Virus record (IMG/VR): IMGVR_UViG_3300020281_000035
Span: 1-52,078 of that record
Length of the DNA stretch: 52,078 bases
Source: a virus
Direction: 5' to 3' (one strand)
Part shown: positions 41,833 to 49,386 of the stretch, piece after piece
Position numbering within the stretch: position 1 is the first letter of the stretch
How the letters are laid out: the number at the start of each line of letters is the position of its first letter
The notes under the pieces: generated by a model
What the model saw: only the letters and a program-made list of their open reading frames with translations
Database searches by the model: none
What the model was told of the DNA's origin: nothing
Position numbers and translations under genes: made by a program

Positions 41833-42042
41833 ATGGATATCGTAGATTTTATTTCAAAGTATCAAAAAGTCTTGAATAATCGTATAGAAGATATTAGTGT
41901 CTCTATAACCAGTGGTAGTATTACTGATATTGAAGACTATCGCGCAAGAGTCGGTGAAATACAGGGTGTCACCTTTGCTCTTGATGAACTGAAGGCCCTG
42001 CTGACAAAGGCAAAATATATCAATGACGTTGATAGTACCTGA
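41833..42042 (+). CDS. Small head-region protein, unknown function
   Basis: A 69-residue helical protein: FISKYQKVLNNRIEDISVSI, then DIEDYRARVGEIQGVTFALD, ELKALL. The 'Y-x-x-x-x-G-E-I-x-G-x-x-x-A-L-x-E-L' pattern is typical of short proteins found between portal and scaffold in other phages. It overlaps the GroES-like gene by 20 bases. Confidence 0.55.
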   Translation: MDIVDFISKYQKVLNNRIEDISVSITSGSITDIEDYRARVGEIQGVTFALDELKALLTKAKYINDVDST

Positions 42043-42448
42043 ATACGTTCTCGCGCAACGCGAAGCGAAAGCAAAGGCCGAAAAGGCTGCAAAAGAAAAA
42101 TCCCTGACAGAACGAATCCCACAGCCTACTGGATGGCGCATACTTGTCATGCCATATATGGGTCGTGAAAAAACTGAAAGTGGAGTTTACGTTCCCGATC
42201 AATCAAGAGAGCGCGAGGCTCGTGCTACCGTTGTAGCTTATGTTGTTAAGGTAGGCCCCTTGGCGTATCAAGACCCTGATAAGTTTGGTGGTGAAGCTTG
42301 GTGTAAAGAAGGTGATTGGGTGTGTATTGGACGCTACGCTGGTTCTCGATTTCAAATTGAGGGTGGCGAAGTGAGAATCATCAATGACGATGAAGTCATT
42401 GCAACCATCGTTGATCCTGACGATATCAAAACGTATGGAGCGGCATAA
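42023..42448 (+). CDS. GroES-like co-chaperonin
   Basis: A 141-residue protein. After a charged Lys/Ala-rich helix (12-30), residues 33-135 read like a Cpn10 domain: QPTGWRILVMPYMGREKTES, GVYVPDQSREREARATVVAY (roof-loop and mobile-loop-like region), VKVGPLAYQDPDKF, WCKEGDWVCIGRYAGSRFQI, RIINDDEVIATI. That matches the pattern 'P-x-x-x-x-v-l-v...G-x-x-x-P...g-x-V...k-x-G-D-x-V...I.ddEvl'. Phage co-chaperonins (T4 gp31, Rb49 CocO) help fold capsid protein with host GroEL. Its place just before scaffold and capsid fits this role. Confidence 0.8.
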   Translation: MTLIVPEYVLAQREAKAKAEKAAKEKSLTERIPQPTGWRILVMPYMGREKTESGVYVPDQSREREARATVVAYVVKVGPLAYQDPDKFGGEAWCKEGDWVCIGRYAGSRFQIEGGEVRIINDDEVIATIVDPDDIKTYGAA

Positions 42449-43847: not shown

Positions 43848-44462
43848 ATGGCAAATGTTAATGTTGCCTTCGGCCTAAAGCCGATTAATACCGCTGGTAG
43901 CACTCCTGCTACTTCCGGTACTAATGCATACTTTATTGACAGCGGCGCAAGCGCGATCTTTCAGGGTTCAATAGTTAAGTGCGACAATGGCGGTGAAATC
44001 GTCATTAGTTCTGCTACTGCTGACACTCAAGCTCCTCTTGGCGTTTTTGCTGGCTGTGAGTATGTATCCTCAACTACAGGTAAAAAAGTATTCTCAAATA
44101 CATGGCCTGGGTCAGGTGCGGACACAAACTTCGACATTGTCGGATTTGTGTACGATAACCCGATGCAGCGTTACATTATTGCGACGGATGCTACATTTAC
44201 CGACAGAGCCACTGCCATAGCTGCTATTTTTGAAAATACGCAGTTAGATAGTGGTGCAAGTGGTAACACAACCACAGGCATTTCCAGTGCAAAGATGGAT
44301 GTCGCAACTCTTGACTCATCAAATGCTTCTCTTCCTTTGAAGATTGTAGGCATTCAAGATGACGTTGAGAATGAAGACTTCGCTGCTGCTGGCATTCCTA
44401 TGATTGTGATGCTTAACAATCACGCACTGCTTCAGGCTGATTCTGAAGCGGCAATTTCGTAA
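43848..44462 (+). CDS. Putative capsid decoration or minor head protein
   Basis: A 204-residue protein, beta-rich, beginning NVAFGLKPINTAGSTPATSG and containing 'G-x-F-A-G-C-E-Y-x-S-x-x-x-G-K', a layout recurring in small head or decoration proteins directly upstream of capsid genes. No HK97 motif. It is preceded by AAGGAG and closely followed by the capsid gene, so both are probably highly expressed. Exact role is inferred. Confidence 0.6.
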   Translation: MANVNVAFGLKPINTAGSTPATSGTNAYFIDSGASAIFQGSIVKCDNGGEIVISSATADTQAPLGVFAGCEYVSSTTGKKVFSNTWPGSGADTNFDIVGFVYDNPMQRYIIATDATFTDRATAIAAIFENTQLDSGASGNTTTGISSAKMDVATLDSSNASLPLKIVGIQDDVENEDFAAAGIPMIVMLNNHALLQADSEAAIS

Positions 44463-44475
44463 GGGAGTGTAGGTA

Positions 44476-45390
44476 ATGGCTATTTCTAGAGCACAACTCG
44501 CCAAAGAACTAGAGCCTGGTCTTAACGCTCTGTTCGGCATGGAATACGGTCGCTACGAAGGTCAGCATTCTGAAATCTTTGATACCGAAACATCAGATCG
44601 GGCATTTGAAGAAGAAGTAATGCTGTCAGGATTCGGCGCGGCTCCTGTAAAAAGTGAAGGTTCGGGCGTATCATTCGATGATGCGAACGAAGCATACACT
44701 GCTCGTTACAACCACGAGACAGTGGCTATGGCCTTCTCAATCACTGAAGAAGCTGTGGAAGACAATCTGTACGATCGTCTAGCTTCACGCTATACTCGTG
44801 CACTTGCACGTTCTATGGCACACACCAAGCAGGTTAAAGCTGCATCAATTCTGAACAACGCATTCTCTGCTGGCGCATTTGCTGGCGGTGACGGTGTTGC
44901 TCTTTGTGATGCGTCACACCCGCTGACATCAGGTGGCACATTCGCCAACGAACCATCAACTGCTGCTGATTTGAATGAAACTTCTTTGGAAGACGCTCTG
45001 ATTAGCATTGCTGGTTTCGTTGATGAGCGTGGCCTAATCATCGCTCTTCGCGGCACGAAGCTAATCATTCCACGTCAGCTTCAGTTCGTTGCGGAACGTC
45101 TGATGGTTTCCAACCTTCGTGTTGGTACAGCAGACAACGATGTAAACGCACTCAAGTCAATGGGCATGTTGCCTGAAGGCTACGTTGTCAACGACTACTT
45201 GGTTGATACTGATGCGTTCTTCATCAAGACAGATGCACCAAACGGCCTCAAGCACTTTGAGCGTACTGCACTGTCAACAGCAATGGACCCAGACTTCGAC
45301 ACTGGTAACATGCGCTTCAAGGCTCGTGAGCGTTACAGCTTTGGATTCTCTGACCCACGTTGTATCTTCGGTTCACCCGGCGCAGCGTAA
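44476..45390 (+). CDS. Major capsid protein
   Basis: A 304-residue protein with HK97-fold features: an N-terminal helix (LAKELEPGLNALFGMEYGRY), a long helix containing DNLYDRLASRYTRALARSMA (about 97-116), and a domain with LCDASHPLTSGGTFANEPST, then KLIIPRQLQFVAERLMVSN and the C-terminal FDTGNMRFKARERYSFGFSD. The 'D-x-S-H-P-L' and 'R-x-R-x-x-x-G' words occur in Mu gpT-like capsid proteins. It follows scaffold and decoration genes and is closed by a strong terminator. Confidence 0.85.
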   Translation: MAISRAQLAKELEPGLNALFGMEYGRYEGQHSEIFDTETSDRAFEEEVMLSGFGAAPVKSEGSGVSFDDANEAYTARYNHETVAMAFSITEEAVEDNLYDRLASRYTRALARSMAHTKQVKAASILNNAFSAGAFAGGDGVALCDASHPLTSGGTFANEPSTAADLNETSLEDALISIAGFVDERGLIIALRGTKLIIPRQLQFVAERLMVSNLRVGTADNDVNALKSMGMLPEGYVVNDYLVDTDAFFIKTDAPNGLKHFERTALSTAMDPDFDTGNMRFKARERYSFGFSDPRCIFGSPGAA

Positions 45391-46295: not shown

Positions 46296-46580
46296 ATGGC
46301 TCGTAAAAAAAGTAAAATGCCGCCCCGTAATAAGAAAAACTTTCGTCCAACGAAAGCAGGGGCAGGCATGACCAAGGCTGGCGTGGCAGCGTATCGTCGC
46401 GCCAATCCTGGTTCTAAGTTAAAGACAGCCGTAACAGGTAAAGTTAAAAAGGGTAGCAAGGACGCTAAGAGACGTAAGTCTTTCTGCGCTAGAAGTGCTG
46501 GTCAGATGAAAAAGTTCCCAAAAGCAGCCAAAGATCCAAACAGCAGATTGAGGCAAGCGAGGCGGAGATGGAAGTGTTAA
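46296..46580 (+). CDS. DUF6321-like basic protein
   Basis: A 94-residue protein from ATG 46296 (an in-frame TTG at 46284 is less likely). It is extremely basic. Two blocks stand out: GAGMTKAGVAAYRRANPGSK and LKTAVTGKVKKGSKDAKRRK followed by SFCARSAGQM. The 'G-x-T-x-A-G...Y-R-R-x-N-P-G-S-x-L-x-T-A-V-T' and 'R-R-K-S-F-C-A-R' words are the signature I know as DUF6321. First of a group of small basic proteins that may bind DNA or the phage tail. Confidence 0.7.
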   Translation: MARKKSKMPPRNKKNFRPTKAGAGMTKAGVAAYRRANPGSKLKTAVTGKVKKGSKDAKRRKSFCARSAGQMKKFPKAAKDPNSRLRQARRRWKC

Positions 46581-46813
46581 ACGTGAACAGTTTTATTGGC
46601 GGCGCAACGCTCGGCTTCATCGGCTGGATAGCTTTTACTGTGGTTGATTTGAAGACCGAGACTGCTGTCATAGCGGTAAAGGTGGATCAGAACCATAAGA
46701 TGCTGGCTGAACTTTGGGATTATTACTTACAAGAAAGGGTCAATGATGGCAATCTCGCGTGGGTCACTCGCAAGCCAGATATCCAAACCACCGCAAAAAC
46801 GCAAGTGGAGTAA
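46568..46813 (+). CDS. Small membrane protein
   Basis: An 81-residue protein, one N-terminal TM (FIGGATLGFIGWIAFTVVDL, about 8-27), then a helix (KVDQNHKMLAELWDYYLQER) and a polar end. It overlaps the basic gene upstream by 13 bases and a small basic gene downstream by 71 bases. Function unknown. Confidence 0.55.
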   Translation: MEVLNVNSFIGGATLGFIGWIAFTVVDLKTETAVIAVKVDQNHKMLAELWDYYLQERVNDGNLAWVTRKPDIQTTAKTQVE

Positions 46814-46898
46814 GAAACGCAAAGCAAAGATAAACTGTAAGCGTCCGCGTGGGTTTAGCGAAAGAGCACACTGTGCAGGTAGGAAGAAAAAGAAATGA
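46743..46898 (+). CDS. Small very basic Cys protein ('CKRPRGFSERAHCAG' type)
   Basis: A 51-residue frame from ATG 46743 (second ATG 46746), with AAAGGG close upstream. It is mostly Lys/Arg, and the C-terminal block CKRPRGFSERAHCAGRKKKK has two Cys separated by 11 residues. It is a pattern I recall from small marine phage proteins of unknown function. The stop overlaps the next ATG as ATGA. Missed easily because it is short and overlaps the membrane gene. Confidence 0.6.
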   Translation: MMAISRGSLASQISKPPQKRKWSKKRKAKINCKRPRGFSERAHCAGRKKKK

Positions 46899-47167
46899 GT
46901 AAGAAAGATGCATGCTATCACAAGGTTAAGGCAAGATATAAGGTTTTCCCGTCGGCGTATGCAAGCGGGGCCATCGCCAAGTGCAGAAAAGTCGGTGCTT
47001 CCAATTGGGGCAACTCAGCAAAGAAAGCGCATGGTGGCATACACGACCAGAAGCCCAAGCGCGCCTTCAGAGGAAAAGCCGTCAAAGGGACAGCAGTGGC
47101 GCGTGGATGTGGTGCTATAATGAAGGGTAGACGTAAAAGAACAAAGGGGGCGGTAACGCAGTCATAG
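46895..47167 (+). CDS. Small basic Cys-containing protein
   Basis: A 90-residue protein: DACYHKVKARYKVFPSAYAS, GAIAKCRKVGASNWGNSAKK, then FRGKAVKGTAVARGCGAIMK and GRRKRTKGAVTQS. The 'F-P-S-A-Y-A-S-x-x-I-x-K-C-R-K-V-G' word is a recurring motif of small basic proteins in marine phages and large DNA viruses. Probably nucleic acid-binding (inference). ATGA overlap on the left; the next gene follows directly on the right. Confidence 0.65.
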   Translation: MSKKDACYHKVKARYKVFPSAYASGAIAKCRKVGASNWGNSAKKAHGGIHDQKPKRAFRGKAVKGTAVARGCGAIMKGRRKRTKGAVTQS

Positions 47168-47611
47168 ATGGATCCTGTTACATTAATCGCCACCGCCACA
47201 GCTTCATACCAGGCGATTAAAAAAGGATTCGCCCTCGGCAAAGAAGTGACATCAATGTCAAAAGACATTGGTAAACTTATGGGTGCCATAGGTGAAATTA
47301 AAGAGGGGCATGAGAAGGCAAAGGGCAGACGGTTTGGCAGTGTAGAGGAAGAAGCTTTACACACCTATGCTGCAAAAAAGAAGGCAGAAAAGATGGAAGC
47401 AGAGCTTCGTAACTTCTTGGTTGCCAATTATGGGTTTAATGCTTGGAGAGATGTGTTAAAGGTACAAGGTGAGTTACGAAAAGAACGACAGGCAAAGAAA
47501 AGAAAACGGGAGCGTTTGATAGAAGCAGTTATGGAGTGGACGTTAGTGTCAATTATAATTGCTATGTTAGTTGGGTTAGGAATATTCATAATTGTAAGTA
47601 TTAGAGGCTGA
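47168..47611 (+). CDS. Tail-anchored membrane protein, coiled coil
   Basis: A 147-residue protein. It is helical and charged through most of its length (EEEALHTYAAKKKAEKMEAE and QGELRKERQAKKRKRERLIE), with one strong C-terminal TM (about 123-144, WTLVSIIIAMLVGLGIFIIV). A tail-anchored layout suggests the helix stays in the cytoplasm. Function unknown; it separates two basic Cys proteins. Confidence 0.6.
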   Translation: MDPVTLIATATASYQAIKKGFALGKEVTSMSKDIGKLMGAIGEIKEGHEKAKGRRFGSVEEEALHTYAAKKKAEKMEAELRNFLVANYGFNAWRDVLKVQGELRKERQAKKRKRERLIEAVMEWTLVSIIIAMLVGLGIFIIVSIRG

Positions 47612-47621
47612 TGGGAAGAAT

Positions 47622-47900
47622 ATGGCTGTTAGAAAAACAAAAGCTGGTCTTGCTCTCAAACGGTGGTTCAAAGAAGACTGGAAGGACGTTCGCACGGGGA
47701 AAGCCTGTGGCAGACGCAAAGGTGAAAAACGGGGTACTCCATATTGTCGCCCCAGCAAAAGGATTTCTAGTAAAACACCCAAGACAACCAAAGAGATGAC
47801 GGCTACAGAAAAACGTAGTAGGATAGCACAGAAGAAACGAATAGGTCAGCCTGCTGGTAAGCCACGTCGTGTTAAGTCACTAAGAAGGAAGAAGAAGTAA
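47622..47900 (+). CDS. DUF5872-like basic protein
   Basis: A 92-residue protein: KTKAGLALKRWFKEDWKDVR, TGKACGRRKGEKRGTPYCRP, SKRISSKTPKTTKEMTATEK. The words 'L-K-R-W-F-K-E-x-W-x-D-V-x-T-G-x-x-C-G-R' and 'Y-C-R-P-S-K-R-x-S-S-K-T-P-K-T' match the signature I know as DUF5872, shared by phages and large DNA viruses. It is likely to bind nucleic acid (inference). GGGAAG precedes the ATG. The alternative frame from 47611 is a shadow. Confidence 0.7.
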   Translation: MAVRKTKAGLALKRWFKEDWKDVRTGKACGRRKGEKRGTPYCRPSKRISSKTPKTTKEMTATEKRSRIAQKKRIGQPAGKPRRVKSLRRKKK

Positions 47901-48094
47901 TGGCACTAAAAGATATACCCCCTGACAATAAAGGACTTCCAAAACTGCCTACAGATGTCCGAAACAAAATGGGTTTTAAGAAAAAAGGCGGCACCGTAAA
48001 AGCAAAAAAAGGTAAGTTTATGTGTGCACCGCGCAAGTTAGAAGCTGGTGCAATGGAAATGCCGAAAAGAAATGGACGTAAAAGAGGAGCTTGA
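47900..48094 (+). CDS. Small basic protein
   Basis: A 64-residue Lys-rich protein: PPDNKGLPKLPTDVRNKMGF, KKKGGTVKAKKGKFMCAP and KRNGRKRGA. TAATG overlap with the previous gene. Composition and position place it in the same group of basic proteins; no fold is recognised. Confidence 0.55.
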   Translation: MALKDIPPDNKGLPKLPTDVRNKMGFKKKGGTVKAKKGKFMCAPRKLEAGAMEMPKRNGRKRGA

Positions 48095-48572
48095 ACAGTG
48101 GATTGTTGAGGAACTTAGTGTTCCTGACCCAGATTTAAACAACATCTGGCCCTGTCCATACGCAAAGAAAGCTTGGTTTGAGAACCAAGTAAAGGTAATC
48201 GAAACAGAAGATGACTTCTGGGACGTTGTAAACGAAGAGGTTGATAATTTTAATGACGACCATGAGGTTGTCATTGTGGCACAGCAAGAACCGTTTTGTG
48301 AGTATGAAGACCTTGAAATCTCATGCATGGCACTAAACAAATGGTTTGCGCAAAAAGGGATGAACATCTGGTTATTGTCGTTTCAACACGACATAACTAT
48401 GGTGTTTATACAACGGTTGTCAAAACTTGATGATGCAAGTGCAAAGCTGCTGAAAAAAGGTTATTATGACAACTATGATGATGATGACTTTGACAACCTG
48501 ATAGCCGAGCGTTCGGCAAGGAGACTACAAGATGCCCATAAGAATAAGACAGAAAATGATAAAAGGTCGTAA
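48072..48572 (+). CDS. Acidic conserved-type protein ('PCPYAKKAW')
   Basis: A 166-residue acidic protein from ATG 48072 (GAAATGG region; a longer frame from 48048 is less likely). NNIWPCPYAKKAWFENQVKV (about 24-43) resembles the 'C-P-F/Y-A-x-x-x' word of DUF1415-type proteins and a family seen in marine phages. The C-terminal part reads FIQRLSKLDDASAKLLKKGY then YDNYDDDDFDNLIAERSARR. It contrasts with its very basic neighbours. Function unknown. Confidence 0.55.
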   Translation: MDVKEELEQWIVEELSVPDPDLNNIWPCPYAKKAWFENQVKVIETEDDFWDVVNEEVDNFNDDHEVVIVAQQEPFCEYEDLEISCMALNKWFAQKGMNIWLLSFQHDITMVFIQRLSKLDDASAKLLKKGYYDNYDDDDFDNLIAERSARRLQDAHKNKTENDKRS

Positions 48573-48717
48573 CGACACCACAAAGCGTAAGCCAAAAAAA
48601 ATGAGAATGATGCGTGGTGGTGCAGCTAAAAAGAAGATGATGCGTGGCGGCGGCAGCATGATGATGAAAAAACCTGTCATGGCTAAAAAAGGAAAGGCCA
48701 TGAGAAAGAAGAAGTAA
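48532..48717 (+). CDS. Extremely basic Met/Lys/Arg-rich protein
   Basis: A 61-residue protein with a repeated M-M-R-G-G motif (about residues 26-43) and many Lys/Arg/Met. No fold can be expected; it looks like a protamine-type nucleic acid-binding or condensation peptide (inference). It overlaps the acidic gene by 41 bases and is directly followed by the adaptor gene (TAAATG). Confidence 0.55.
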   Translation: MPIRIRQKMIKGRNDTTKRKPKKMRMMRGGAAKKKMMRGGGSMMMKKPVMAKKGKAMRKKK

Positions 48718-49386
48718 ATGGCAACTTCAGGTTCAACAGACTTCGACCTCGACGTAGCTGAGATAATCGAAGAAGCATATGAGCGGTGTGGACTTGAGGT
48801 TCGCACCGGATATGATGCCAAAACAGCACGTCGTTCTATGAACCTGATGTTTGCTGACTGGGCTAATCGTGGTCTTAACTTGTGGACAGTGAAGCAGGCA
48901 ACGCAAGCTTTAACACAGGGCACGGCTACTTACACTCTTGATGCTAACCACACAGACATTCTTGAAGTGTCTTTACGTCGTAGCGGAGTAGACCAAGAAC
49001 TTACACGGATGTCTCGTGGTGAGTATTTAGGCATACCCAACAAAACAACTCAGGGTAAACCTAGTCAGTTTTATTATAATAGACAGAGTGCCCCGCAGAT
49101 TACTTTGTGGGCCACTCCAGAAAACTCAACCGACACGCTTGTATATTATTATGTAAAGCGAATTGAAGATGTGGATACGTTAGCAAACACAACTGACGCA
49201 CCGTTTCGATTTTTACCTTGCATGGTTGCAGGACTGTCGTACTACTTGTCAATCAAAAGAGCACCAGATCGAGTACAACTTTTGAAGTCTGTGTATGAAG
49301 AAGAGTTCCAACGCGCAGCGGATGAGGATGAAGATAGAGTACCGTTAAAGTTACAGCCTAGTATTTCTTATCTTCGGGTAAACTAA
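48718..49386 (+). CDS. P22 gp4-like head-to-tail adaptor
   Basis: A 222-residue protein likely to form the adaptor ring under the portal. It begins DFDLDVAEIIEEAYERCGLE and RTGYDAKTARRSMNLMFADW (about 17-48), with later words LEVSLRRSGVDQELTRMSRG, PSQFYYNRQSAPQITLWATP, LVYYYVKRIED and MVAGLSYYLSIKRAPDRV. This pattern matches the P22 gp4-like adaptor family. Its neighbours are virion genes. Confidence 0.75.
   Translation: MATSGSTDFDLDVAEIIEEAYERCGLEVRTGYDAKTARRSMNLMFADWANRGLNLWTVKQATQALTQGTATYTLDANHTDILEVSLRRSGVDQELTRMSRGEYLGIPNKTTQGKPSQFYYNRQSAPQITLWATPENSTDTLVYYYVKRIEDVDTLANTTDAPFRFLPCMVAGLSYYLSIKRAPDRVQLLKSVYEEEFQRAADEDEDRVPLKLQPSISYLRVN

Follow-up and report, generated by a model that had tools for sequence, protein, structure and literature searches.

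Background

The described system that the gene block examined here appears to resemble is that of the internal proteins of phage T4, rather than that of protamines. The block consists of six small basic open reading frames (ORFs), designated A to F, and lies in a 52,078-base virus record (IMG/VR record IMGVR_UViG_3300020281_000035, referred to as the window) in which terminase, portal, capsid and adaptor genes are present. According to the accessible text of PMC9026906, the T4 proteins IPI, IPII, IPIII and Alt are small and basic, as is this set, and they are packaged in the head and cleaved by gp21 after L/I-x-E, features that the set would share under the interpretation given below; the T4 internal proteins are present at about 300 copies each. 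They differ from the set in carrying a capsid-targeting propeptide and in being poorly conserved, whereas the set is made of conserved two-cysteine modules, encoded separately or in a multi-module polyprotein and common to unrelated phages.

Other basic virion proteins are comparable in part. P64 is basic, contains several two-cysteine modules and condenses DNA (described in PMC6163548), but it has Arg/Ser repeats, and no match to PF08793 (Virus 2-cysteine adaptor) was obtained at E ≤ 1 with the window proteins and ten relatives. Baculovirus P6.9 is small and very basic like the members of the set (same source), but is of the Arg/Ser-rich protamine type, whereas the modules described here keep conserved aromatic and cysteine positions. 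Chlorella virus PBCV-1 has basic virion proteins that were proposed to neutralise DNA (PMC3281028); these DNA-binding proteins are large, unlike the set, and are likened to it by description. The same source, in its accessible part, states that there is no evidence for basic proteins contributing much to the neutralisation of phage DNA. The T4-GC119 protein of cyanophages is homologous to the set and carries D, C and A, but in fused form.

Our preferred interpretation, with a probability of about 0.55, is that A, C and D, usually with B, are basic mini-proteins of the head interior located on the packaged DNA, and that T4-like phages produce them in the form of one polyprotein that can be cleaved. 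These small folded two-cysteine proteins would be enclosed in the head with the genome, would associate with the packaged DNA through their charge, and may exit the head along with it. In podophages, the window phage presumably included, each mini-protein would be expressed from its own gene, next to that of the capsid protein, whereas in T4-like cyanophages the polyprotein would enter the prohead, where a gp21-like prohead protease would release the same mini-proteins by cutting between [ILVM]-x-E and [GAS]. In literature searches on DUF5872/DUF6321 and a cyanophage internal polyprotein, and on marine-phage basic proteins, DNA condensation and pelagiphage virion proteomics, no description of the set was found in titles and the beginnings of abstracts; in the literature searched, DUF5872 is named by one paper and DUF6321 by none.

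Composition and conservation of the basic gene block

All six basic ORFs were confirmed within 2.4 kb, between the major capsid protein (MCP) gene and the SU10-type adaptor gene, which places them in the virion region as had been predicted. Sizes are in amino acids (aa).

46296..46580, + strand: A, DUF6321 protein, core; 94 aa, net charge +31, 2 Cys; Pfam PF19846 (E = 2.2e-13); detected by the triad profile hidden Markov model (HMM)
46743..46898, + strand: B, common member; 51 aa, net charge +18; motif C-x2-P[KR]GFS-x2-AHC
46895..47167, + strand: C, core; 90 aa, net charge +22; phrog_727 (E = 2.4e-19); detected by the triad HMM
47622..47900, + strand: D, DUF5872 protein, core; 92 aa, net charge +29, 2 Cys; Pfam PF19197 (E = 5.7e-15)
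47900..48094, + strand: E, lineage-specific basic ORF; 64 aa, net charge +14; 13/80 loci
48532..48717, + strand: F, low-complexity Met/Lys/Arg ORF; 61 aa, net charge +24; 18/80 loci

The isoelectric points (pI) range from 10.7 to 12.0 and the Lys + Arg content from 27 to 41%, so that all six are small and strongly basic in the manner of T4-type internal proteins. A net charge of at least +0.2 per residue was found for 6 of the 79 genes of a simple gene call on the window, 5 of them inside the block (B is missing from this list solely through overlap with its neighbours), and 5 basic genes fell within an 8-gene run in 7 of 20,000 random gene orders. The cluster of five or six short basic proteins that the original prediction had recognised is thus real. 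The paired cysteines attributed to several of them are present in A, B and D (two each); C has three, E one and F none.

A and D exceeded the Pfam cut-offs for DUF6321 (51.1 bits, cut-off 28.5) and DUF5872 (56.4 bits, cut-off 27.5; profile positions 49-111 only), in line with the likeness to these two families that had been noticed within the block. C stayed under the DUF5872 cut-off (14.2 bits, E = 0.07, profile positions 12-66), and three more C-type proteins scanned for this family gave no match. C, with the motif DACY-x-KVK-x-RY-x-V[FW]PSAYASGA-x2-KCRK, strongly matches phrog_727, phrog_38880 and phrog_3477; A also matches phrog_727 and phrog_3477 at another part of each profile, which was the first hint that the two are fused elsewhere. 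No Pfam or PHROGs family was matched by B, E or F at E ≤ 1. The alignment of D contains 16 invariant columns, including W, F, C, G and P.

Co-occurrence of the six families, proposed earlier as a check, was determined in sets of viral loci, each consisting of the best 80 of 592-596 confirmed stretches and therefore biased to close relatives; D itself matched at least 595 viral stretches. Among the 80 best loci hit by the DUF5872 protein, tblastn searches recovered D in 80 (as the query), C in 76, A in 70 and B in 45, and the acidic protein encoded at 48072 in 19, F in 18 and E in 13. The recurrence of the members across these loci indicates that the ORFs of the block are not due to chance. The core is A, C and D, B is common, and E, F and the acidic protein are extras of some lineages. 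A unit of six proteins was accordingly rejected; what stands of the proposed packaging set is the linked core with B.

For domain counts of the A, C and D triad, iterated profiles were used with a domain threshold of E ≤ 1e-3. Of 240 viral loci selected on D, 182 contained all three domains (68/80, 52/80 and 62/80 in the three sets), as separate ORFs spanning at most 3 kb. Where 3 kb of sequence was available on both sides of D, the full triad was found in 19/19, 14/22 and 21/23 loci, and C in 19/19, 22/22 and 22/23. A search selected on A in 84,980 bacterial and archaeal species genomes gave 33 loci, with both C and D in 16, neither in 17 and one alone in none. Homologues of window virion genes were also held by 21 of the 33, and for this reason these loci look like phage contigs in cellular bins. 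The module-bearing phage contigs concerned (L331-L363) are binned into many bacterial and archaeal phyla in GTDB, likely through contamination or infected single cells.

Separate genes are also found in isolates. CRP-7 encodes A, C and D as gp65, gp64 and gp63, upstream of the terminase gene; in the T7-like P-SCSP2, genes 19 (C), 22 (D) and 23 (A) precede the MCP gene; in HTVC023P, gp43 (A), gp51 (C) and gp52 (D) are scattered across 5 kb; and in P-SCSP1u the A gene directly follows the MCP gene. HTVC010P has A alone. Among 50,697 phage records, A was matched in 183, C in 365, any part of the GC119 protein in 491, and D (with window D as the query) in 5; the tallied organism names of the matching records are those of aquatic phages. 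Phages infecting Pelagibacter, Roseobacter-type bacteria, Methylophilales and cyanobacteria carry the A, C and D domains, and D also occurs in an algal giant virus: the DUF5872 protein of Chrysochromulina ericina virus was a structural match in Foldseek (E = 0.015, 35% identity), and a DUF5872 protein is listed for the algal virus CpV-BQ1 (PMC12085832, accessible text). The set, which recurs in unrelated ocean viruses, is probably a shared kit packed with viral DNA.

Fusion of the modules and candidate cleavage sites

In the T4-like cyanophages S-SM1 and S-P4, the T4-GC119 protein combines D, C and A in a single polypeptide, with a length of 495 aa in one isolate and 529 aa in the other, and is annotated as hypothetical or as "structural protein". 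In S-SM1, S-P4 and S-CREM2, the A-bearing protein is encoded between the gene for the small terminase subunit and that for the large one. A search with the S-SM1 protein gave 80 viral contigs, of which 54 had the triad in one ORF (order D-C-A in 53) and 23 had A alone. An extra motif, CWxGY...C, is present between C and A in many fused proteins, and 8 ORFs of this T4-like set contain the B motif, which in 3 of these stands in one chain with A, C and D; no ORF matched the reversed B motif. In L285, L289, L292, L296 and other loci, an added conserved module (TGN...WRGK...FFP...VYPG) is inserted between the CW motif and A; it is flanked by x-E-A/G sites, and a similar stretch was noticed by eye in ORF137 of S-CREM2.

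Motifs were counted in 49 of 54 fused proteins, near-duplicates having been removed. Their linkers contain 172 [ILVM]-x-E-[GAS] sites, against 56.7 ± 7.4 in shuffled sequences, and control motifs gave z values of 1.9 (reversed), -0.1 (D version) and 1.1 (K version); after dereplication on linkers, 16 fused proteins still held 59 sites against 17.4 ± 4.2. On unique 9-mers, a hydrophobic residue at P3 was associated with a small residue at P1' around E (odds ratio 3.8, p = 4.5e-20); the association was absent around D, K and T and reversed around N (p = 0.04). The sites are enriched at module boundaries: 76 of 138 motif-type E sites lie within 15 residues before a module, compared with 308 of 1070 other E residues.

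With a wider pattern, a site was found 0-3 residues before C in 36 of 41 cases (49 C modules in all), and the start of the stand-alone C protein lies 1-2 residues before the module in 24 of 46 cases, so that the predicted cut would yield a product nearly identical to the stand-alone protein. The agreement is looser for D and A, where a site lies within 30 residues in 34/48 and 22/49 modules, respectively. The motif resembles the T4 prohead-protease site, which suggests that the fused proteins may be cleaved in the same way; the stand-alone mini-protein genes would need no cut. S-SM1 carries gp21, gp22 and gp23 genes, and its gp22 has six strict sites.

Predicted structure

In AlphaFold2 models, the mean predicted local distance difference test score (pLDDT) was 68.3 for D and also 68.3 for the fused protein of locus L262, in which much of the modules reached about 70-86. 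In the L262 model, pLDDT was below 50 at residues 1-15, 89-107, 152-156 and 196-200; of its four predicted sites, those following residues 8, 108 and 201 fall in or next to these segments, and the one before the CW motif lies outside them. Searches by sequence for relatives of solved structure gave none that was convincing (best E = 0.65 and 0.92), and Foldseek returned no match below E = 0.001 against the PDB for D or the fused model and five matches at E ≤ 0.001 against viral models. Matches of the fused model to alpha-defensins were disregarded (about 22-25 columns, E > 2).

The modules thus have two-cysteine motifs that are conserved, and folds that are predicted with confidence in part, and hence they do not look like disordered protamine-like peptides; a protamine-like set was one of the natures that the original prediction had offered. 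Protamine-like condensers are Arg-rich and unstructured, which agrees neither with the invariant columns of D nor with modules mostly at pLDDT of about 70-86. The low-complexity F could fit the protamine-like type.

Virion detection and alternative explanations

Relatives of the set have been detected in the virion of one phage, the location foreseen for it. S-CREM2 ORF137 carries the A domain at its C-terminal end and ORF160 carries the D and C domains; mass spectrometry of caesium chloride-purified S-CREM2 virions gave 4 unique peptides (4.1% coverage) for ORF137 and 7 (13.1%) for ORF160 (Table 3 of PMC10665884). By homology, these data support a virion location of the set. The published text available for S-SM1 reports 41 virion proteins (PMC3037559). 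Residues 17-70 of ORF160 (L088:6242-7135) match phrog_696, a "major head protein" profile, and by eye are similar to the N-terminal part of S-SM1 gp23; they may serve as a tag for targeting to the head.

Several observations weigh against the interpretation of the core as head-internal, cleavable mini-proteins. The coverage of ORF137 is weak, and the virion data come from the T4-like S-CREM2 only. A occurs away from C and D in about half of the A-selected loci (17/33). The literal T4 rule [LI]-x-E is weakly enriched (57 sites against 42.6 ± 5.9, z = 1.8-2.4) and in larger sets lies little above its reverse (z up to 2.0); strict sites are absent from S-SM1 gp23. Only 97 of the 198 modules have a strict site before them, the [ILVM]-x-E/[GAS] motif was chosen after the sequences had been viewed, and the proteins are related; taken together, these points make cleavage a strong hint and not proof. 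Finally, a full set of six carries a net charge of +138, and 755 copies would neutralise the genome, so that at T4-like copy numbers the charge offset would be partial. By arithmetic, 300 copies of a set of 452 aa would weigh about 15 MDa, compared with about 34 MDa for the DNA; space is therefore limited, and bulk neutralisation is unlikely at such copy numbers.

The same proteins might instead be packaged and then ejected, like T4 Alt or IPI, to take over the host early in infection or to counter its defences, with host nucleic acid or ribosomes as their targets; we consider this unlikely. Ejection is described for the T4 internal proteins, one of which, IPI, blocks a restriction system (PMC9026906, accessible text). 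Detection in virions and the position of the genes in the head region would fit this role equally well, but the domains are common to phages of diverse hosts and D reaches an algal giant virus. Host-specific inhibitors usually diverge faster, whereas A and D vary little: median identity to the window is 89% for D (the selection query) and 86% for A, against 79% for the MCP and 60% for the adaptor (C, 62%; the neighbour at 43848, 40%). Less probable than ejected effectors are non-virion nucleic-acid binders, helpers of replication, packaging or translation that would contaminate virion preparations via DNA. The cyanophage gene position between the two terminase genes suggests packaging, and the low mass-spectrometric coverage would fit contaminants. 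On the other side, two separate domain-bearing ORFs were detected in the virion, and the site-like motifs at module boundaries would serve no obvious function anywhere but in the prohead.

We find it improbable that the proteins are parts of the capsid or connector (cement, neck or assembly factors whose charge would bind an acidic scaffold or the shell). In most of the annotated isolates read, and in the window family, the genes lie near those of the MCP, adaptor, portal or terminase, and the modules are folded with two cysteines, as such parts could be. Their charge of +14 to +31 in 51-94 aa is, on the other hand, unusual for cement proteins. P-SCSP1u has its A gene after the MCP gene, yet its shell is described as made of MCP only and its portal-tail as made of four other proteins (PMC10575957); the accessible text of that structure paper makes no mention of the A product.

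If the head-internal interpretation is correct, the set would be a conserved protein component of the packaged double-stranded DNA phage genome, a general protein contribution to a role usually attributed to cations and polyamines, and would link the heads of phages with those of algal giant viruses. The wider proposal, a portable head-nucleoprotein kit common to several unrelated marine tailed-phage lineages and, partly, to algal giant viruses, with a polyprotein cut by the prohead protease in T4-like cyanophages, is held more tentatively. A testable role would then be available for two domains of unknown function that occur across very common viruses of the ocean; the predicted prohead-protease products may already be contained in existing cyanophage virion mass spectra, and A to D are four concrete candidate virion markers for marine viral metaproteomics.

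Other genes of the block and its surroundings

Three further ORFs sit among the six basic ones, overlapping or almost abutting them; they are listed with the two context genes on either side of the block.

46568..46813, + strand: putative membrane protein, N-terminus hydrophobic; 39/80 loci
47168..47611, + strand: putative membrane protein, C-terminus hydrophobic; phrog_32327 (E = 4.1e-14); 22/80 loci
48072..48572, + strand: acidic protein, accessory; pI 4.3; phrog_28122 (E = 4e-26); 19/80 loci
44476..45390, + strand: context, major capsid protein; Phage_capsid_4 (E = 1.5e-11); phrog_371, major head protein
48718..49386, + strand: context, SU10-type adaptor; PF24175 (E = 2.4e-12); 76/80 loci

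The predicted interleaving with one very acidic protein and two other ORFs was recovered; the label of membrane protein for the latter two was given on hydrophobic stretches judged by eye, and the first of them matched no Pfam or PHROGs family above cut-off. The acidic protein, previously suggested as a partner of the basic set, is no general partner, since 19 of 80 loci encode it, whereas the core is encoded in most; it accompanies F in 16 of its 19 loci.

A Cpn10/GroES-like gene is located at 42023-42448 of the window, just upstream of the capsid genes, and HTVC023P has one too. Similar Gly/Arg-rich words (such as RGCGAIM, RGMGRAYM and RGMGFKG), which may represent a shared terminal tag, are found towards the C-terminal end in several proteins that are unrelated to one another, both in the window phage (46895-47167 and 39433-39912) and in HTVC023P (L002; gp51 and gp53).

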